This document shows, piece by piece, positions 6,526 through 15,222 of a DNA stretch of 64,000 nt. The notes under the pieces were generated by a model. It had not been told where the DNA came from. It ran no database searches and saw only the letters and a list, made by a program, of their open reading frames with translations. The stretch is from assembly GCA_019359315.1 (NCBI GenBank), contig JAHHHO010000003.1, forward strand, positions 62,001-126,000, read 5' to 3'. This DNA is from Myxacorys californica WJT36-NPBG1 (lineage in GTDB: Bacteria; Cyanobacteriota; Cyanobacteriia; Leptolyngbyales; Leptolyngbyaceae). The position numbers and the translations under genes are program-made. Numbering within the stretch: the stretch's first letter is position 1; each line of letters begins with the position of its first letter.

Positions 6526-7377
6526 ATGAGCATTACTCTTCCTCTGGCTGTCATGCAGCAATGGTCAAAGAACGTGATCGATCTTCGCCACTTGCTGCAT
6601 GACTTTACTATTGCGACTGACCATTCCCCCTTTCTCCGCTGGGATACCGCTCTAGAGCAAGAAGATGGTGCTGGTATTCGAGTTGCCTTACTTGACTCCG
6701 GCATTCAGTTGCAACATCCATTGCTAAAAGGCGCTCAGATACAGGCGCGAGACTTTACAGGTAGTGGCGGTGTCTTTGATCGAAGCGGACACGGAACTAA
6801 AGGTGCAGCATTACTAGTGGGACAAACGGATTTGAGAGGGCTTGTGCCTGCCTGCACATTGCTAGTCGGCAAGGTTTTGGGCGGAGATCGCGAGACTAGC
6901 GCGGTTGCGATCGCTCAAGGCATTCGTTGGGCACTGGCTCAAGGCGCTCAGGTGATCGCGCTCCCTCTGGGTCGGCGTCAGAGTTCACCGCTCGTGCAGC
7001 AAGCCGTGCGTCAAGCCCTAGCAAAAGGCTGCAAGATCTTTGCGGCGGCTGGAAATTATGGCGTTGATGTCTGCCTATTTCCAGCTCGATTACCGGGTGT
7101 AGTTGCTGTCTCAGCCACAACTTTAGCGGGTGTGCCCCTGTCTTGGTGCTGTCAATCTCAAGTCGATTGTTATGCTCCTGGACAAGATGTTTTTCCTAGC
7201 GATCTGGCAGGGGGTAGTAGCATTAATGGTTCGTCAGCCGCAACGGTTTTGGCAGCAGGAGTCGCGGCGCTACGAATGGCAAGGTCAGCAAAGACGAGGG
7301 ATGAAGTAGATTGGCGTTCATCGTTCGATCAGACACAGCTTACTAGCGCTTCGTCATCAGATTCGTCATCAAAGTAG
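6526..7377 (+). CDS. Compact subtilisin-like serine protease (S8) without prodomain
   Basis: 283 residues with the full S8 catalytic set: Asp in VALLDSGIQ (near 56), His in SGHGTKGA (near 89), oxyanion Asn in AAAGNYG and Ser in NGSSAAT (near 236). There is neither a signal peptide nor room for an inhibitory prodomain, so it is probably cytoplasmic and made in an active-ready fold. Family members of this size with no leader include intracellular subtilases and the proteases of peptide-maturation clusters. The last 25 residues are a polar Ser-rich tail. It lies between the unrecognised 434-residue protein and a second, larger subtilase. Catalytic assignment is firm; substrate is unknown. Confidence 0.85.
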   Translation: MSITLPLAVMQQWSKNVIDLRHLLHDFTIATDHSPFLRWDTALEQEDGAGIRVALLDSGIQLQHPLLKGAQIQARDFTGSGGVFDRSGHGTKGAALLVGQTDLRGLVPACTLLVGKVLGGDRETSAVAIAQGIRWALAQGAQVIALPLGRRQSSPLVQQAVRQALAKGCKIFAAAGNYGVDVCLFPARLPGVVAVSATTLAGVPLSWCCQSQVDCYAPGQDVFPSDLAGGSSINGSSAATVLAAGVAALRMARSAKTRDEVDWRSSFDQTQLTSASSSDSSSK

Positions 7378-7441: not shown

Positions 7442-9766
7442 ATGAATAGCACTCCACCATTTCAGCGCGTGTCGCTGCAAGAAACCCTATGCTTTGTTCT
7501 TAGCCTGAGTGCAGCAGAAGCCCAAGCCGTCCTTGAAAGACGGCTGGTTATCCCAGCAAAAACGATTTGCGATCGCACGCATCTAGATCGCGTCACGGTC
7601 GATCGCGTGTTGCAAAATCCCGCCGCCGTTCGACAACTCCGCTTAAACCCCAACCGCATTACCTCCACTCAAATTGCTCGGATTCCTCATCTCAGATCTG
7701 AACGGGCAAAAATCGTGGCTCAAGGGCGACCGTATTATGCGATCGCAGAACTAGAAGCGGCTACTGCGCTCCCTCGTGCTCTATTAGACCAGCTATTTCT
7801 GATTGCTCCGCTGAGCTATCAGGATAAGCAAGCGCACAAGGAAATCACGTTTACACCTGTTTTGGGACGCTACTTAATTCCGGCAAAAACCGATTTAGAA
7901 ACCACTGATCCTCTGGAAGCGACAGGCTATGTCGAAGTGTTGCCTTCCCTACCAGAGTTTGACTTTCGGATTGTGCAACCCAGCGAATTTGAAGCCGATC
8001 CCGCTCCCCATGATCTTAAAGCTGCTTTTGCAGGCAATGTTCATCCCGTATTGCGAGACGCCGAAGGATTTGAGCGGTATCTTGTGCCAGGATCGCTCGA
8101 CTTGTGGGTTCGCCCCGATGTTGCTGAGGCCCAGTGTTGGTCAATGATTCAAGCCTTGGGACTTCAAGTGACAAATGCCATACCGGGAGTGGGGTATTAC
8201 CGCACCAAGTTGGGCGTTATGCCAGAGGATCGGGATGTAGTTCGGGCGGTACTTGCAGCGATCGATCGCGCCCAACAGCAAGACGACGTTCTCTTTGCTG
8301 AAATCGATCAGGTCGGATTTGAAGATTTTGGTTTGGATCAATCAGTTGTGGCGAACGATGAGGAGTTTGAGGAGTCCGATCGCTATTGGAACTACGATGC
8401 CATTCATCTCTCAGAAGCTCATCTGATCACAAAAGGATCATCAAATGTCACGATCATCATTATCGATAGCGGCGCTCGTACTGATCATGAAGCGTTGAAA
8501 CCCGCATTTCGTTCCGATTGGCAGACATTAGATCTCAATTTTGATTTAGGTGTTCTCGATAGCGAGCGATCGCCCAATGAAGCGGTGATTGCCCATGGTA
8601 CAAAAGTTGCGGGGGTGATCAGTCGGCAAGATGCTGCTGCGTATGCCGTTGCGCCTAATTGTCGTATTCTGCCGATCAAAATTCCGGGTCAGTTTGCGTC
8701 TCCAGCTTATGGCTTAAGAGCCGCTGCGATTCGCCAGGCACTCACGTATCTCCAGCCCGGAGAGCGGGCAGTGATCAATCTAAGCTGGCGTACCAATGGC
8801 GAACACATCGGGATTCGCGAGGCGTTGGTTGAGGCACAAAATCGAGGGGTTGCCGTGGTTGCTTCTGCGGGTAACTATGCCCCTGGTGCTGCTCAACGAC
8901 CCGATGAACTCCACTATCCGTCTGCTCATACTTACCGCGATCCGCAGTTGACCAATCTTTGTACCGTCGCCGCTGTTGGGGTAGGCGATCGCAAAGCTAG
9001 CTATTCTTACTATGGGCAGCAGAGCATTACTGTTGCCGCACCAGGTGGTGAAAAAGGCAGCGCAGGAGCCGGAATTTACACGACATCGACTCCAGAAAAA
9101 TATGTGTACACCTGCGGGACATCCTTTGCAGCGCCTCATGTTGCAGGGCTGATTGCGCTGTTATTCTCGGTCAAACCCGATCTAAGTCCGGCAGATGCGA
9201 TCGCAATCATTAAAGACACTGCCGATCCGATCGATGCGGTGAATGCGCCGTATGCCGGGATGCTGGGCGCAGGTCGGATCAATGCACGAGCAGCACTAGA
9301 GCGGCTGGTTCCCTCGCAGAATAGAACCTATACAATCACTGCAACTGCCGGATCACACGGTCAAATTACTCCAAAAGGTTCCATTGTGGTTCAGCACGGA
9401 GCAGACCAGACCTTTGCGATCGCGCCAGATGCCGATTACCAGATTGCAGAACTGTTGATAGACGGCAATTCCATCGATATTGCCCCGTCTTATACCTTCA
9501 AAAACATCACGACGGCTCATGCGATCGCTGTGCAATTTGCTCCCCAAGGGGCAGAACCCAGCCATTATGATTCAGCAGGTCGATTGAACATTAATTTGGC
9601 AACGCTGGCAGAACTGATGACCTTACCTTCTATTGGTAGTTGGTTAGCCGATCGCATTGTGAAATATCGCGCTACTCACGGCTTCTTTAGCAGCATTTGG
9701 GGACTCTCTTTAGCAGGTGTGAGTGCCTGGACGATCGGACAAATCAAAACAAAGATTACGGTTTGA
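7442..9766 (+). CDS. Large subtilisin-like protease flanked by helix-hairpin-helix domains
   Basis: 774 residues. Domain order: a polar N-terminal part with a helix-hairpin-helix-like segment (ITSTQIARIPHLRSERAKIV, about 72-125); a subtilase prodomain-like fold (LDLWVRPDVAEAQ... LFAEIDQVG, about 210-290); the S8 domain with Asp in IIIDSGA (near 341), His in AHGTKVAG (near 384), Asn in ASAGNYA (near 478) and Ser in CGTSFAAPH (near 560); a beta-rich domain resembling bacterial surface repeats (about 632-710); and a ComEA-like helix-hairpin-helix (LNINLATLAELMTLPSIG, 713 onward). No signal peptide is visible. With the neighbouring compact protease and the 434-residue protein it forms a three-gene plus-strand cassette. 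Confidence 0.85.
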   Translation: MNSTPPFQRVSLQETLCFVLSLSAAEAQAVLERRLVIPAKTICDRTHLDRVTVDRVLQNPAAVRQLRLNPNRITSTQIARIPHLRSERAKIVAQGRPYYAIAELEAATALPRALLDQLFLIAPLSYQDKQAHKEITFTPVLGRYLIPAKTDLETTDPLEATGYVEVLPSLPEFDFRIVQPSEFEADPAPHDLKAAFAGNVHPVLRDAEGFERYLVPGSLDLWVRPDVAEAQCWSMIQALGLQVTNAIPGVGYYRTKLGVMPEDRDVVRAVLAAIDRAQQQDDVLFAEIDQVGFEDFGLDQSVVANDEEFEESDRYWNYDAIHLSEAHLITKGSSNVTIIIIDSGARTDHEALKPAFRSDWQTLDLNFDLGVLDSERSPNEAVIAHGTKVAGVISRQDAAAYAVAPNCRILPIKIPGQFASPAYGLRAAAIRQALTYLQPGERAVINLSWRTNGEHIGIREALVEAQNRGVAVVASAGNYAPGAAQRPDELHYPSAHTYRDPQLTNLCTVAAVGVGDRKASYSYYGQQSITVAAPGGEKGSAGAGIYTTSTPEKYVYTCGTSFAAPHVAGLIALLFSVKPDLSPADAIAIIKDTADPIDAVNAPYAGMLGAGRINARAALERLVPSQNRTYTITATAGSHGQITPKGSIVVQHGADQTFAIAPDADYQIAELLIDGNSIDIAPSYTFKNITTAHAIAVQFAPQGAEPSHYDSAGRLNINLATLAELMTLPSIGSWLADRIVKYRATHGFFSSIWGLSLAGVSAWTIGQIKTKITV

Positions 9767-9970
9767 CGATTGGGATGCACAAGGCATTTAGAATCGGCTG
9801 AACTTGAGGAATCAGTTGACGTTGTTTTGCAATCGGCAGTATGCCGAGGATGCCGTGGTCTTGTTGAAAGAGTGTGTTGCCGTTGGCACAGCGAAGCTGA
9901 CCGCGAGTTCTTGGCGTAAGTCTGCTTCTGTAAGAGATAAGTTATCGGGCAGGTTAATTGTAATTTGCAT
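9756..9970 (-). pseudogene. Fused remnant of a UPF0175 antitoxin and a DUF3368 (PIN-like) toxin
   Basis: Starting at the ATG at 9970, the minus strand reads MQITINLPDNLSLTEADLRQ, typical of the start of UPF0175 antitoxins, for about 24 residues, then runs into unrelated residues and stops at 9812. In another frame the same stretch reads HGILGILPIAKQRQLIPQ followed by VQPILNAL, the typical end of DUF3368 toxins, to a stop at 9756. A deletion joining the antitoxin start to the toxin end out of frame explains this. It lies 3 bases after the stop of the upstream gene and overlaps the end of the convergent subtilase gene. Confidence 0.55.
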
Positions 9971-9973
9971 CGG

Positions 9974-10363
9974 TTAGGCTCCTGGAAGTTGTCTTCGATT
10001 GCGATCGTAGATCTCGTAGAGGCGTTTGAGAACTTCAATCGGAATGCCTGCAACTGGAACAAGAATTTTAGTGGCTTCAATGCCTCCCGCAAATAGAACG
10101 CTGAAGGTATCTTGCCAGCGTTGCCAATTCTGAAGATTGGTTTGAGGCATTTGCTGGAAGCCGTTGATCAGTCTATCGAAGAGTTGTTCGTCTGTGGCGG
10201 TGGGATATTTCTGACGGAGTTGGGTGAGTAAGTCAGTGAGCTTTTGTGAGGCTGCTGCGACTTGTGGGGCGGGTGCATGAACAATCATGTCACCTTCGAC
10301 ATTGCCTGCGACTCCTGAGACAGGTGCATTGAAATTTTGTTGAACTTTGGCGATATCGCTCAT
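9974..10363 (-). CDS. Small protein with N-terminal GNVEG tag and hydrophobic C-terminal segment
   Basis: 129 residues. Residues 9-27, QNFNAPVSGVAGNVEGDMI, match QNFYAPVDTVVGNVEGNLI at the C-terminus of the NACHT protein three genes upstream. A helical part follows (KLTDLLTQLRQKYPTATDEQ), then a hydrophobic stretch (FSVLFAGGIEATKILVPVAG, about 93-112) and a basic end (NRRQ). Similar tags and PTATEAEQ-like helices occur in small cyanobacterial proteins linked to NTPase genes; their role is not established. The ATG overlaps the TGA of the RelE-type toxin gene by one base, implying translational coupling. A membrane-acting effector recruited through the tag is a reasonable but untested idea. Confidence 0.7.
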   Translation of the reverse strand: MSDIAKVQQNFNAPVSGVAGNVEGDMIVHAPAPQVAAASQKLTDLLTQLRQKYPTATDEQLFDRLINGFQQMPQTNLQNWQRWQDTFSVLFAGGIEATKILVPVAGIPIEVLKRLYEIYDRNRRQLPGA

Positions 10364-10623
10364 CAGTCGTATGCCTCGCTGCGATGTTTGATGGTGAGGA
10401 TGGAAACGATCTTGGTTTCGTCGTCAATCGCGTATAAAACGCGGTAGTCGCCTGTGCGAAAACGGTAGATGCCTGAGAAGTCGCCTTTGAGCGGTTTGAT
10501 GTTGGGGTGGATGCGGGGGTTCTGCTCAAGATGAATGAAGCATCGAGAGACTTTCTTGGCGGTAGCGAGATCGAGTTTGATGTAAAGCGCTTCGGCGTTG
10601 GCAGATAGGACGACTTCATACAT
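10363..10623 (-). CDS. RelE/ParE-type toxin
   Basis: 86 residues from the ATG at 10623 (MYEVVLSANAEALYIKL). The fold pattern is that of the RelE/ParE superfamily: an N-terminal strand, two helices (LDLATAKKVSRCFIHLEQNP), then IKPLKGDFSGIYRFRTGDYRVLY and an I-K-H-R-x-x-A-Y end with the basic residues used for mRNA cleavage in RelE members. The longer frame upstream of this ATG is out of character and overlaps the antitoxin. The start overlaps the antitoxin end by 8 bases and the stop overlaps the next start, so the three genes are coupled. ParE-like gyrase poisons share the fold, so the target cannot be fixed from sequence. Confidence 0.85.
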   Translation of the reverse strand: MYEVVLSANAEALYIKLDLATAKKVSRCFIHLEQNPRIHPNIKPLKGDFSGIYRFRTGDYRVLYAIDDETKIVSILTIKHRSEAYD

Positions 10624-10885
10624 CGGAGCGAAGGTTTCTCCAATTTTTGAACTGATTGATTGGTGTTGCTTGGGCTTGCTTGAGTTCGTTGAGGAGATTG
10701 GGATGTCTGCTGAGTTCTTCGGTTGCTTCGGTAGATTCTTTGTCGAGTAGGAAGGTGGCGAAGTCGGTGAGGGTTTGGAGATGTTCGATCGAGAGTTGGG
10801 GTGCAATCTCAGTGAGTTGGGCTTGGAGTGTTTGAGATTGGGCGATCGCGGTATCAGTTGTGTCGCTAGAGTTAGCTAGGTTCAT
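10616..10885 (-). CDS. Putative antitoxin of the RelE-type pair
   Basis: 89 residues, small and acidic in its middle part, with a helical core LSIEHLQTLTDFATFLLDKE and a C-terminal tail ending KNWRNLRSDV. The length, the position directly before a RelE-type toxin and the 8-base overlap identify it as the antitoxin. It resembles short cyanobacterial antitoxins with a -FA-FL- helix (DUF2281-like), but I cannot see a certain DNA-binding motif. It starts 29 bases after the NACHT gene ends, on the same strand. Confidence 0.7.
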   Translation of the reverse strand: MNLANSSDTTDTAIAQSQTLQAQLTEIAPQLSIEHLQTLTDFATFLLDKESTEATEELSRHPNLLNELKQAQATPINQFKNWRNLRSDV

Positions 10886-10914
10886 GAGATGGCTTTGGGA
10901 ATGGGTGTCTAAGT

Positions 10915-13659
10915 TTAGTTTACTGAATCGGATGGAGGGGCAATGAGGTTACCTTCGACGTTGCCCACGACGGTATCGACTGGAGCGTAAAAGTTTTGAG
11001 TGATGAGAGAGCGATCGCTGGTTTGGCTTTTTTGTCGATCGGCTTTCTGTGCTTCTAAATAGGCTTGAAAGATTTCGTAGTTATAGTATTTACAGTTCTC
11101 TTGGATGGCGAGGATGGTGCGATGAGCATCTTGACCTGAATCGGATGGGATTAAGGTTAGGAGATGGGGGAGATGTTGAGCAATCGAGTTTGTGTATTTC
11201 TTCGCGATTCCGCCTAACGCCTCTGCCGCCCTCCAACGCACATCGGAATCGGAATCTTCCACGAGTTGCAGTAATGCAGAAATTGCCTGTTCGCTGCCTA
11301 CCTTGCCTAACGCCTCTGCCGCCCTCCAACGCACATCGGAATCGGAATCTTCCACGAGTTGCAGTAATGCAGGAATTGCCTGTTCGCTGCCTACCTTGCC
11401 TAACGCCTCTACCGCACTCCAACGCACACCGGAATCGGAATCTTCCACGAGTTGCAGTAATGCAGGAATTGCCTGTTCGCTGCCTACCTTGCCTAACGCC
11501 TCTGCCGCCCTCCAACGCACATCGGAATCAGAATCTTCCACGAGTTGCAGTAATGCAGGAATTGCCTGTTCGCTGCCTACCTTGCCTAACGCCTCTGCCG
11601 CCCTCCAACGCACATCGGAATCGGAATCTTCCACGAGTTGCAGTAATGCAGGAATTGCCTGTTCGCTGCCTACCTTGCCTAACGCCTCTGCCGCCCTCCA
11701 ACGCACACCGGAATCGGAATCTTCCACGAGTTGCAGTAATGCAGAAATTGCCTGTTCGCTGCCTACCTTGCCTAACGCCTCTGCCGCACTCCAACGCACA
11801 TCGGAATCGGAATCTTCCACGAGTTGCAGTAATGCAGGAATTGCCTGTTCGCTGCCTACCTTGCCTAACGCCTCTACCGCACTCCAACGCACATAGAAAT
11901 CGGAATCTTCCACGAGTTGCAGTAATGCAGGAATTGCCTGTTCGCTGCCTACCTTGCCTAACGCCTCTGCCGCCCTCCTACGCACATAGAAATCGGAATG
12001 TTCCACGAGTTGCAGTAATGCAGAAATTGCCTGTTCGCTGCCTACCTTGCCTAACGCCTCTGCCGCCCTCCTACGCACATAGAAATCGAAATCTTCCACG
12101 AGTTGCAGTAATGCAGGAATTGCCTGTTCGCTGCCTATCATGCCTAACGCCTCTGCCGCACTCCTACGCTTATTGGAATCGGAATCTTCCACGAGTTGCA
12201 GCAAGCTCTCAATGCTACAGTCCGATCGCGTCTCTCCCAGAAGCTTAACCTTTAACCAAGTCGTCACGTTCAAAGCATTGATTAGTCCGACAGTCTGCCC
12301 CTGAAACTCCCGCTTCACTTCTCCCGCTAGTCTTGCTCCCAATCTCCAATCTACCTCCACCGCCAGCTTCACAACTCGAACCGTCTGCGTCTCATCCTCT
12401 ACTAATGCCAACATCAACGCCACAGGCTCTGTCCACTTCAGATAATTTAAAAAATCCTGCTTTAGTAACTCATCCTCTAGCCCAGCAACTCCATTCAGCA
12501 AAGACTCCGCCGCGTAATATTCCTGAATCAATTGATGCCGAAACTCTAGCTCCTCAGGATTCGTTCCTGCCTGAACCAAATGATGCTTCTGCAAATCCCG
12601 CAGGCACTTCCGCGCAAAATCTTCTGCATACGCCACTTTCCCATTCAGGAATTGAGCGATCGCTCTCACCGCCTCTTCCTTTGCGATCGCAACCCGAATC
12701 TCCGTCGGCTTTTCCCCCTGCATCATCACCCACGCCAACTGTTGCAGCACAGGCTTCCACCAATCGCGATCGCCCTCAATCCGCACATCTTCTTTCAAAT
12801 ACCGCTCATAGCCCTGGGTAAACTCCCGAAACACCAATCCCAAATTCTCTGGAATCGTGCCCGTCTGCTGAAACAATTCACACAGCATCCACAACAACAA
12901 CGGTGTTTGTCCAAACTCTCGCAATCGCTCTTTCAATTGCCGCAGCATCTGTTCTGCTTGCTCTGGCGACAAATACGCTCGAACAAACGCTTGCATCTGC
13001 GCTTCCGTAAGCGGCTGCATTTCTAACTTCTTTTCAATGCCGAGATCTCCCCCAAGACTCAAATCTCGCGTGGTGAAGATCATCGGCAGTTTGGGACGAT
13101 TGCGGCGAAACGCTGAAAGCTGCGATCGCGCTTCCTCCGACGGCAATTCATTCACCCCATCGAAGAGAATTAGAGATCGAGACAATACCGCTTCAAATTG
13201 GTCAGCCGATAGCCCGTGACGAGCCAACGAATTGAGAATTAATTGTTCGATCGAGCTTTGCCAGTAGCGCAATTCCACCAGTACTGGAATTCGCCAGTCT
13301 TCCTCCCCTCTCCCAAGCTTGGGAGAGGGGCTGGGGGTGAGGGCTGCCTCCGCCTCTTCCAGCATCAACCGTGCCAACGCCGTAGACTTTCCCGAACCCG
13401 GTCGCCCAACGAGCAAAACGTGCTGGTCTGCATACTGACGAATCCCTTCGAGAACTGGGAATCGTTCAACCTTTTCTTCGTTCCGCTGTTCTCGCTCCTC
13501 CCGCTTCACCGTCTGCACTATCAAGCCAAAATCAAACGGCGCAGACTGTTTTGCTCTAATCTTCTCTCTGCCCTGCGCGTCGGTCAGCGTGTAGAGTTCC
13601 GACCACTTTTCATAAGTCGCCGCGATCGACTGAAGATAGGGCTGAAACTGAGAAGACAT
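10915..13659 (-). CDS. NACHT-type NTPase with C-terminal HEAT repeats and terminal GNVEG tag
   Basis: 914 residues. A short N-terminal helical part contains EKWSELYTLTD; the NTPase has Walker A GRPGSGKST (near 84-92), a Walker B variant LILFDGVNEL (near 165) and a sensor-like FTTRD, followed by helical winged-helix-like sequence to about 470. Residues about 482-815 are 11 HEAT/PBS-lyase-type repeats of exactly 31 residues (consensus AIPALLQLVEDSDSDVRW and then RAAEALGKVGSEQ). The end carries QNFYAPVDTVVGNVEGNLI (888-906), shared with the small protein at 9974. STAND NTPases of this design act as sensors in bacterial conflict systems or as regulators. Between Walker A and the next strand sits TPSPSPKLGRGEE, encoded by an inserted palindromic repeat. 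It is the first gene of a four-gene minus-strand operon. Confidence 0.9.
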   Translation of the reverse strand: MSSQFQPYLQSIAATYEKWSELYTLTDAQGREKIRAKQSAPFDFGLIVQTVKREEREQRNEEKVERFPVLEGIRQYADQHVLLVGRPGSGKSTALARLMLEEAEAALTPSPSPKLGRGEEDWRIPVLVELRYWQSSIEQLILNSLARHGLSADQFEAVLSRSLILFDGVNELPSEEARSQLSAFRRNRPKLPMIFTTRDLSLGGDLGIEKKLEMQPLTEAQMQAFVRAYLSPEQAEQMLRQLKERLREFGQTPLLLWMLCELFQQTGTIPENLGLVFREFTQGYERYLKEDVRIEGDRDWWKPVLQQLAWVMMQGEKPTEIRVAIAKEEAVRAIAQFLNGKVAYAEDFARKCLRDLQKHHLVQAGTNPEELEFRHQLIQEYYAAESLLNGVAGLEDELLKQDFLNYLKWTEPVALMLALVEDETQTVRVVKLAVEVDWRLGARLAGEVKREFQGQTVGLINALNVTTWLKVKLLGETRSDCSIESLLQLVEDSDSNKRRSAAEALGMIGSEQAIPALLQLVEDFDFYVRRRAAEALGKVGSEQAISALLQLVEHSDFYVRRRAAEALGKVGSEQAIPALLQLVEDSDFYVRWSAVEALGKVGSEQAIPALLQLVEDSDSDVRWSAAEALGKVGSEQAISALLQLVEDSDSGVRWRAAEALGKVGSEQAIPALLQLVEDSDSDVRWRAAEALGKVGSEQAIPALLQLVEDSDSDVRWRAAEALGKVGSEQAIPALLQLVEDSDSGVRWSAVEALGKVGSEQAIPALLQLVEDSDSDVRWRAAEALGKVGSEQAISALLQLVEDSDSDVRWRAAEALGGIAKKYTNSIAQHLPHLLTLIPSDSGQDAHRTILAIQENCKYYNYEIFQAYLEAQKADRQKSQTSDRSLITQNFYAPVDTVVGNVEGNLIAPPSDSVN
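11213..12213 (-). repeat. 11 near-identical 93-bp coding repeats (HEAT units)
   Basis: Copies start every 93 bases with no insertion or deletion (for example CCTAACGCCTCT at 11213 and again at 12143). Central units differ by only a few bases; changes cluster in the codons for repeat positions 13-20 (SDSDVRWR, FDFYVRRR, SDSGVRWS). The unit at the 12.2-kb end is the most diverged. Confidence 0.95.
13305..13343 (-). repeat. Palindromic interspersed repeat inserted in frame in the NACHT gene
   Basis: A perfect 26-bp palindrome centred on AAGCTT (CCCCTCTCCCAAG facing CTTGGGAGAGGGG) is followed by CTGGGGGTGAGGG. Elements of this form are widespread in bacterial genomes, where they encode SPSPKLGRGE-like peptides when inside genes. 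Here it adds TPSPSPKLGRGEE after the Walker A helix without breaking the frame. Confidence 0.8.
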
Positions 13660-14277: not shown

Positions 14278-14370
14278 TCACTCGCGATCGGAAAACCTTC
14301 CTCTAAACTGGTTCAATCTATTGGGTGACACAACGTTTCTATCTCAAGATAGGAACGTTTCTTTTTAGCG

Positions 14371-14581
14371 AAGCAACGGTTCATCGACGCAATAGAATGT
14401 ACCCATCAGCAACAAGCATGATTTCATCGACAAAACAGAACGATGCATCAGTGTGAAGCAACTGTCCATCGACACAAAGCAACTGTCCATTGATATCAAG
14501 CAACTGTCCATCGACACGAAGCAACTGTCCATCGACGCCAAGCAACTGTCCATCGACGCCAAGCAACCGTTCATCGTGACC
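14371..14581. repeat. Tandem array, ten units of about 21 bp
   Basis: Units follow AAGCAACTGTCCATCGACGC plus one base. Five central units are close to identical; the outer ones are diverged and one has 22 bases. Because 21 is a multiple of 3, both strands show repetitive open frames (KQLSIDT on plus, MDSCLAS on minus), which I take as by-products. The array lies between a plus-strand hypothetical gene and the 3' end of the rhomboid gene. Confidence 0.9.
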
Positions 14582-14631
14582 AAGGAGCAATGCTTTAGGA
14601 AGAAAGAAACTTTCTATTCGTATAACAATTT

Positions 14632-15222
14632 TCAGTTCAAAATCTTCTCAAACCACTGGGTTAACTGGGGCAGATAGCGAGCCGTAAGAACACCACTCAT
14701 AAACCCAAACAAGTGCCCCTGCCAAGATATTCCACGTCGCGTGGGCAAAAGGCCCCAAATTAGCGGGCCATAGAGCAGAACAACAATCAGTGAAATTGCC
14801 GCCGACAACAGATCTTGTTCAAAATAGCTCCGCGACAGCAGAAACCCAAAGTAGCCAAAAACAACTCCACTCGCGCCTACATGTAGCGTATTGCGTCCGG
14901 CAAACAGCCAAACTCCTAACCCACTCAACACCCAAGGAACAGCAGTCGCGATCGCAAACTCCTCAATGCCTCTAACGATCACAAACCAACCCAAGACCAC
15001 AAACGGAACCGTATTCGCTGTTAAATGGTTCCAAGTGCCATGCAGTAACGGTGCAAACAAAATTCCGCGCAGCCCAGTTTGGCTCCGGGGACGAATCCCT
15101 AGAAGATTTAAGCGATTTTGCAGCAGCAGTTGATCAAAAATCTCTAGTCCCCACATCAGAGCGATGAGGCTGCCGAGAATTTTGGCTTGGGTTTGAAAGT
15201 CGTTGGTAAGAATAGGCTGCAT
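14632..15222 (-). CDS. Rhomboid-family intramembrane serine protease
   Basis: 196 residues with about six hydrophobic segments. The rhomboid hallmarks are present: H-x-x-x-N in HLTANT (TM2), catalytic Ser in VGASGVVFGYFG (TM4) and catalytic His in WQGHLFGFMSG (TM6). Length matches the compact bacterial rhomboid core. It cuts single-span membrane proteins within the bilayer; substrates cannot be predicted. It is the last gene of a possible minus-strand run HU, cobD-like, flavoprotein, rhomboid, with a 61-base gap to the preceding gene. The tandem array starts just after its stop codon. Confidence 0.9.
   Translation of the reverse strand: MQPILTNDFQTQAKILGSLIALMWGLEIFDQLLLQNRLNLLGIRPRSQTGLRGILFAPLLHGTWNHLTANTVPFVVLGWFVIVRGIEEFAIATAVPWVLSGLGVWLFAGRNTLHVGASGVVFGYFGFLLSRSYFEQDLLSAAISLIVVLLYGPLIWGLLPTRRGISWQGHLFGFMSGVLTARYLPQLTQWFEKILN

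Follow-up and report, generated by a model that had tools for sequence, protein, structure and literature searches.

A short tag common to a NACHT-HEAT NTPase and a neighboring small helical protein of Myxacorys californica suggests a family of tag-paired proteins in cyanobacteria

The 64,000-nucleotide stretch of Myxacorys californica WJT36-NPBG1 analyzed here (contig JAHHHO010000003.1, positions 62,001 to 126,000; referred to as the window, with positions counted from its first letter) contains, on the minus strand, the genes of a large nucleoside triphosphatase (NTPase) and of a small protein that carry closely similar short sequences, here called tags, at opposite ends. The NTPase (914 residues, 10915..13659), the candidate sensor of the pair, has a NACHT domain at residues 81-231 (PF05729, E 7e-7, 29.6 bits against a cutoff of 26.7), with a Walker A motif, GRPGSGKS, at residues 85-92 (13384..13407), and an array of HEAT repeats at residues about 514-841 (11137..12120; Pfam HEAT_2, E 6e-109); this combination of a NACHT P-loop domain and a C-terminal repeat sensor is that of STAND-type proteins. 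Because 84 residues precede the Walker A motif, there is little space for an N-terminal effector domain. The tag of the NTPase, QNFYAPVDTVVGNVEGNLI, occupies residues 888-906 (10942..10998), ending eight residues before the C-terminus. The small protein (129 residues, 9974..10363) carries its tag, QNFNAPVSGVAGNVEGDMI, at residues 9-27 (10283..10339), and continues into a tail domain (residues 33-123, 9995..10267) that is predicted to form a five-helix bundle and contains a conserved FAGG.EA.K...P.AGIPIEV stretch. Both 19-residue sequences lie where the original prediction, made from the letters of the window, had placed them.

When the two whole proteins are aligned locally, the best-scoring stretch is the tag itself, with 26 columns and a BLOSUM62 score of 74; on recounting, 13 of the 19 tag residues are identical, rather than the 11 initially claimed. 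Shuffled small proteins aligned to the NTPase gave a mean score of 33.8 and a maximum of 57, with none of 2000 reaching 74, and when the 34-residue tag region was compared with the last 60 residues of the NTPase, none of 20,000 same-composition shuffles did so. The alignment comprises the tag only, with no globular adaptor domain common to the two proteins (for the NTPase, among the best 25 of 49 Pfam matches). In the window's own genome, a profile of the tag matches just these two sites at E ≤0.05.

The small protein consists of a tag of 20-40 residues, rich in Asn, Gly, Ile and Val, and a helical tail, and in similarity searches its relatives keep the tail but are very different over the N-terminal 20-40 residues. 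The tail profile matches proteins in at least 122 of 291 genomes of the class (E ≤1e-5), a count that may be low because most of the larger genomes had 18 candidates scored. Across a sample of the phylum, 17 of 117 genomes matched, all 17 being the window's genome or members of its class, and where two genomes of the genus were compared the tail was absent from the other one. The tail from survey locus L065 has matches in 33 plasmid records, of which the named ones are cyanobacterial, and on a plasmid of Calothrix sp. PCC 6303 a HEAT-repeat protein (WP_015201148) is encoded directly upstream of a tail protein (WP_015201147). For five members of the family, no Pfam or NCBIfam match exceeded its cutoff (best Pfam E 0.0036), and the matches of five members in PHROGs were weak (best E 0.0079); the window protein found nothing better than E 0.013 in PADLOC, and no relatives were found in viral contigs or, at E 0.01, in phage records.

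In an AlphaFold2 model built from 11 sequences, the tag is unstructured, with very low confidence in the predicted monomer (predicted local distance difference test, pLDDT, <50 for residues 1-29), and five helices are placed within residues 33-123; the block of residues 31-120 has pLDDT values of 71-87, the chain mean is 69.5, and the predicted template modeling score is 0.57. Foldseek returned no match to the tail model at E ≤0.001 (45 at E ≤10, the best at 1.9), and in a further structure comparison the highest-scoring hit (Z 5.8) was a protein designed de novo. The tail profile also hit designed helical proteins in the PDB, in some cases with strong E-values; these hits were set aside as helical-bundle artefacts, and weak structural matches to MCL-1, Bak and Fis1 were not used. 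The tail alignments contain no obvious catalytic residue set. The original prediction had cast the hydrophobic C-terminal segment of the small protein as the effector part, which the family makes doubtful: the Kyte-Doolittle 19-mer maximum is 1.63 in the window protein, the family median is 0.88, and 14 of 105 tails reach 1.6, a threshold for membrane helices.

Pairing was surveyed at 106 loci, 46 of them found by way of the whole small protein or its tag, and 60 picked from the tail-profile list (about 40 short frames and 20 long); a profile scan of contigs gave 10 loci, and the bulk came from genome searches. The loci held 107 open reading frames (ORFs) with a tail; two in which fewer than 15 residues precede the tail were dropped, leaving 105: 76 short proteins (≤260 residues) and 29 long, fused ones. 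The 45 residues preceding each tail were scored against both ends of each tail-free neighboring gene product, with a threshold of 40. Loci that were copies of others in the sample (L104, L105, L106, L108 and L109) were excluded before counting, and two apparent pairs (L110_2 and L111_1) were dropped since their match was a HEAT repeat and not a tag, reducing the count from 43 to 41; near-duplicate loci, such as L094/L095, L117/L120 and L145/L147, were retained.

A tag-matched neighbor was found for 41 of the 76 short tail proteins, 37 of them at a score of at least 50, compared with a mean rate of 6.9% at the threshold of 40 when tags were scored against other loci; none of 10,000 permutations reached the observed mean score. 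The short proteins chosen by tail profile alone matched in 21 of 40 cases against a background of 8.3%, and the remaining 36 in 20. Among short ORFs without a tail from the same loci, 32 of 504 reached 40, and 25 reached 50, of which the 20 examples inspected mostly resemble duplicated genes or repeated ORFs. Asn- and Gly-rich tags raise background matches, as an explanation by chance or low-complexity similarity would have it; set against the same-composition shuffles of the window pair and control rates of about 6-8% at the same threshold, that explanation is refuted for the set as a whole and has next to no probability, although single weak pairs with scores near 40 could be due to chance. 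The tag profile gave a similar picture, with matches in 37 of 291 genomes at E ≤0.05, 11 of which had two, on the same contig and within 2 kb of each other in 10 of the 11. Random occurrence of tags without pairing was named in the original prediction as an outcome that would speak against it; in the genomes searched, hits are paired more often than chance would give. The paired proteins are very likely functional partners.

In 38 of the 41 pairs the tag of the partner is C-terminal, with 0-18 residues following it, and the partner is encoded upstream on the same strand in 36. The three N-terminal tags belong to an NB-ARC protein (L075), a NACHT protein (L077) and the partner at L131. At two of these loci (L075, in G266, and L077, in G188) the tag stands at the NTPase N-terminus, as in published bacterial systems, and the tag of the tail protein still precedes the tail.

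Single linkage of the tags gave 13 classes, or about a dozen when the ten-residue tag of L086 is counted, by eye, as a fragment of the NAPV type. Examples are NAPVxGxAGNVEGD, INQVGNINSGDVTIQGDQIG, GDKVxGDKI repeats, FPNAxKVQIFEQVDTY, DLRGANIGNLAETVQGDQI, ATIGVNYAAENSNI and GGDYYEIKNKGTYVHGDYY. Cognate tags score a median of 74, and cross-class comparisons a median of 19, with 3 of 1424 at 40 or more. The co-variation extends below the level of the class: in the five larger classes (31 pairs), cognates score 76.6 and shuffled partners 64.5, a difference that none of 20,000 within-class permutations reproduced. Over 1115 codons, the cognate peptides are 54% identical, with a synonymous divergence (dS) of 2.34 and a ratio of nonsynonymous to synonymous divergence (dN/dS) of 0.16, dN and dN/dS being biased low because the pairs were selected by protein similarity. 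As synonymous sites are near saturation, cognate tags are not recent copies of one another at the DNA level. This bears on whether the tag could be a spacer or cap left by the splitting of a fused gene, with no role in recognition. The sensor-tag-tail order of the long tail proteins (29 scanned) would make such a fission origin natural, yet the similarity between tags has been kept long after any split, given the near-saturated synonymous sites and the higher scores of cognates than of same-class non-cognates; we consider the spacer explanation improbable.

Tags and tails were also found to assort independently. Of 439 tail pairs with an identity of 50% or more, 214 carry unrelated tags (score <30), and tails up to 94% identical do so; the tails of L090 and L103, for example, are 85% identical and follow the tags FPKAEKVQVFEQVDTY and NAPVTGVSGNVEGD, respectively. 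Conversely, 152 of 2099 tail pairs less than 30% identical have tags scoring at least 50. The tag is thus no part of a longer common domain, the second outcome that would have counted against the original prediction, and tag and tail behave as separate modules. A docking peptide, of which both copies bind the same groove in the tail so that the sensor's copy displaces that of the small protein and relieves autoinhibition, would likewise yield two similar peptides, and the tag does directly adjoin the tail. With near-identical tails bearing unrelated tags and dissimilar tails bearing similar ones, each change of tag would require a different groove, which argues against docking of the tag on its own tail and for tag-to-tag recognition; docking is accordingly a very unlikely alternative in our estimate.

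Tag composition is biased toward Asn (2.85-fold), Gly (2.0-fold), Ile, Val, His and Gln, and Leu, Arg, Trp and Cys are underrepresented. By analogy, this composition and the lack of structure in the predicted monomer fit amyloid signaling motifs. Roc-COR-type GTPases at seven loci (L132 checked individually; L128, L130, L139, L136, L137 and L143 assigned by domain counts and P-loops) end in tags with GDKVxGDKI-like stretches. Such stretches reappear in the next tag-tail protein, ahead of its tail, and their five-residue periodicity suggests a small beta-solenoid.

The partners are of more than one kind. The original prediction expected pairs of an NTPase and a small protein, and NACHT-HEAT partners were indeed found; the same tails are also paired with Roc-COR GTPases and with DUF6232, pentapeptide, AbiTii and TIR proteins. 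The Pfam domains counted among the 41 partners are HEAT (13), NACHT (11), COR-B (10), COR-A (9), Roc (7), LRR (7) and DUF6232 (7), and single cases include AbiTii (L116, E 3e-45), NB-ARC (L075), a trypsin-NACHT-HEAT protein (L098) and pentapeptide proteins (L078 and L146). The partner at L067 is a ThsB-type TIR protein (E 5e-44), cut by the contig end. At L098 (G155), two tail proteins carry different tags, one matching the upstream trypsin-NACHT-HEAT protein and the other without a partner in the stretch. The DUF6232-type partners (L117, L120, L121, L123, L126, L140 and L148; L117 checked individually, the seven of 41 by domain count) are short proteins with hydrophobic segments and a C-terminal tag, encoded 23-41 bases upstream of the tag-tail gene, and are perhaps a membrane-linked version of the same device.

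In the 29 long proteins, the tail is fused C-terminally to a larger protein (pentapeptide in 11, HEAT in 9, NACHT in 7, Roc in 4 and COR in 3), and in most a tag-like stretch stands before the tail, L097_4 and L101_22 being exceptions. The fused proteins often belong to the same types as the split partners, and 27 of the 29 have no tag-matched neighbor; the mean own score of the fused proteins exceeds that of permutations (11 of 10,000 reach the observed value). The split form is the expected product of fission of a sensor-tag-tail protein with the tag on both halves, which would explain why its order is reversed relative to that of published systems. At one locus (L156; G283:C37, 291-5481), two adjoining pentapeptide-tag-tail fusions match the N-terminus of the next gene product with scores of 107 and 98. 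That protein contains a CHAT domain (PF12770, 33.4 bits against a cutoff of 24; E 5e-12 to a solved CHAT protein), and the arrangement is a possible receptor-adaptor-protease line.

Between the two tagged genes of the window lie an antitoxin-like ORF (89 residues, 10616..10885, minus strand), with weak, below-cutoff similarity to DUF2281 and a similar ORF in the equivalent position at L073, and a ParE/RelE-type toxin gene (86 residues, 10363..10623, minus strand; PF05016, E 9e-12, 45.8 bits against a cutoff of 23). The toxin gene shares 8 bases with the antitoxin-like ORF and a single base with the small-protein gene, where its stop codon and the start of the small protein meet in TGATG. The four minus-strand genes are tightly packed, so the single operon originally assumed is plausible. 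Toxin-antitoxin type genes were seen by eye in the same place, between sensor and tag-tail genes, at L132, L128, L139, L133, L094, L095, L090, L142 and L074 as well as in the window (10363-10885), and the 36 in-between ORFs that were scanned include BrnT (4), PIN (3), ParE (2) and UPF0175 (2) families. As a general third component of the system these genes were not retained: 36 control genes (of 72 eligible) from the same loci also held UPF0175, Phd/YefM, TacA and PIN families, making enrichment uncertain, and 13 of the 41 pairs are too close for any gene in between.

The surroundings of the tagged genes in the window are briefly described for completeness. Directly downstream of the small protein (about 9769-9972, minus strand) is what looks, by eye, like a frameshifted remnant of a further toxin-antitoxin pair of UPF0175/DUF3368-like type, two minus-strand frames each containing just part of it. 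Two adjacent genes for subtilase-type (S8) peptidases on the plus strand (6526-7377 and 7442-9766) point toward the tagged genes, the second also encoding a helix-hairpin-helix domain and, at a level below cutoff, a weak InlB-type repeat. On the other side, short tandem repeats at 14365-14677 would encode QLSIDTKQ-like units when the plus strand is read and SMDSCL-like units when the minus strand is, and the adjoining ORF at 14632-15222 is presumably rhomboid-like.

What the sequences show is that tags occur in pairs and co-vary, that tags and tails have been exchanged independently of each other, and that fused forms exist. Matching tags suggest how sensor and small protein find each other, and it is likely that the tags recognize each other; that they do so through amyloid-like beta assemblies is about an even matter. 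We infer from these patterns that tags would bind physically in an amyloid-like manner, and that crowding would activate a tail serving as the output. In such a mechanism, the NACHT-HEAT NTPase would sense a trigger and oligomerize, clustering its C-terminal tags; the clustered tags would act as templates, imposing their beta-type fold on the tag at the N-terminus of the small protein; many tail domains would be recruited and crowded onto the sensor; and the crowding would activate the tail domain, the output in the split form, which itself looks like the product of fission of a fused sensor-tag-tail protein that retained the tag on both halves. The two proteins would then be halves of one signaling device with the tail as its output, a reading to which we give an even chance. 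In favor of the output role, the 84 residues before the Walker A motif of the window NTPase offer little room for an effector domain, and the tail is the constant part of the system. Cell death or dormancy would be our guess at what that output is. A link to defense is suggested by the partner domains, by the patchy presence of the tail among genomes and by its carriage on plasmids.

Several observations weigh against this reading of the two proteins as one device with the tail as its output. The trypsin-like (L098), AbiTii (L116) and TIR (L067) partners bring candidate effectors of their own, and the tail proteins of L156 look more like recruiters of an effector than like effectors themselves. 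No fold relative of the tail was recognized by Foldseek or the second structure comparison, and most tails are insufficiently hydrophobic for membrane insertion. The tag-matched neighbor is absent, in the stretch examined, for 35 of the 76 short tail proteins; six or so of these sit at contig ends, and at L076, unpaired by score, the upstream HEAT protein has a C-terminal tag seen by the profile (E 0.002). The counts come from a sample with related genomes and near-duplicate loci and are not independent events, and the bias in dN and dN/dS also belongs here.

Alternatively, the tail would act as an assembly adaptor or a brake, with tags still pairing homotypically and the output residing in the sensor N-terminus, in a TIR, AbiTii or CHAT partner, or in an in-between toxin. 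In favor of the adaptor role, some partners (TIR, AbiTii, trypsin-NACHT-HEAT, CHAT) are likely effectors themselves, and the tag that the L156 fusions have in common with the CHAT protein raised our estimate of it and lowered that of the tail as output; the lack of obvious catalytic residues in the tails, most of which are not hydrophobic, and the BrnT, PIN and ParE genes between tagged genes point the same way. Against it, 8 of 10 partners with a G.PGSGKS Walker motif have that motif at residue 58-158, leaving little N-terminal space (the exceptions are L093, at 284, and L098, at 346; partner N-termini were searched individually in part), and the toxin link is weakened by the close-set pairs and by the antitoxin and PIN families among the control genes. 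On balance the adaptor role is a serious alternative that falls well short of an even chance. Homotypic recruitment as such, which the output and adaptor roles have in common, is highly probable.

Dyrka 2020 is reportedly the original paper on the bacterial motifs (BASS). Published bacterial amyloid signaling motifs lie at the N-terminus of an NLR and the C-terminus of the effector (PMC7889193, PMC12261475), and fungal motifs follow the same order (PMC9815663). Amyloid signaling motifs are about 25 residues long and diverse (PMC12261475), often with polar residues (PMC8086366), and BASS/BELL, the BASS motifs with BELL effectors, comprises many motif families, known in cyanobacteria and sometimes accompanied by CHAT or TIR proteins (PMC7889193, PMC12261475, PMC9815663). 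The window pair resembles these systems in a motif of about 25 residues common to an NLR-type NTPase and an adjacently encoded small helical protein, and the motif is common to neighboring gene products throughout the set (41 of 76, with no permutation in 10,000 reaching the observed mean). The reversed order noted in the original prediction was borne out: the sensor motif lies at residues 888-906 of 914 rather than at the NLR N-terminus, with 38 C-terminal and 3 N-terminal partner tags in the set, and the small-protein motif lies at residues 9-27 of 129 rather than at the effector C-terminus, the tag preceding the tail in the tabulated proteins. Unlike BASS/BELL, the partners here also include Roc-COR GTPases, DUF6232, pentapeptide and AbiTii proteins, and most tails lack a clear membrane helix. 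This separation from BASS/BELL is based on published descriptions of motif position; a given tag may still be one of BASS1-10. Two defining features of BASS/BELL are thus absent, yet by analogy the working principle may be the same.

HET-S and NWD2 are components of the fungal amyloid signalosome. Systems of this type also place NLR and effector genes side by side, with a short motif in common and helical-bundle effectors (PMC7889193, PMC9815663); HeLo-type effectors have a C-terminal motif and a released N-terminal helix (PMC9815663), whereas here the tail follows the tag and its C-terminal end would be free. The effector-associated domain (EAD) and TRADD-N systems of multicellular bacteria likewise join, in cyanobacteria, a constant recruiting module to sensor or effector domains that vary, STAND, HEAT and pentapeptide proteins among them (PMC8195603, PMC7159879), but EADs are domains thought to self-pair, and in the present system it is a short, diverse tag that matches, with the tail as the constant component. 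Among the open-access titles and abstracts listed, which set the extent of the literature covered, we found no description of C-terminal sensor tags paired with this tail.

A broader reading, which we put forward tentatively and rate a little below even, is that of a tag code, in which about a dozen or more short beta-type tags would wire varied proteins (NACHT and NB-ARC NTPases, LRR-Roc-COR GTPases, membrane DUF6232 proteins, TIR, CHAT and AbiTii) to one as yet undescribed family of helical tail proteins through homotypic, prion-like assembly, in an order that mirrors that of the fungal and known bacterial systems. The tails would then constitute a new family, either of effectors for cell death or dormancy or of hub adaptors, and re-assortment of tags and tails would create insulated lines within each cell. 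In amyloid-type signaling as described in PMC7889193 and PMC12261475, the receptors are NLRs and the motif is at the receptor N-terminus. The function of the tail, a domain family that has no library model, can be tested, and many cyanobacterial proteins annotated only as 'pentapeptide repeat', 'HEAT repeat' or 'hypothetical' have this one C-terminal module in common. The loci also provide a large natural collection of cognate and non-cognate pairs for tests of tag specificity. If the reading is true, a mirrored amyloid-type version serving Roc-COR, AbiTii, TIR, CHAT and membrane proteins would make self-recognizing tags a general wiring principle of cyanobacteria.

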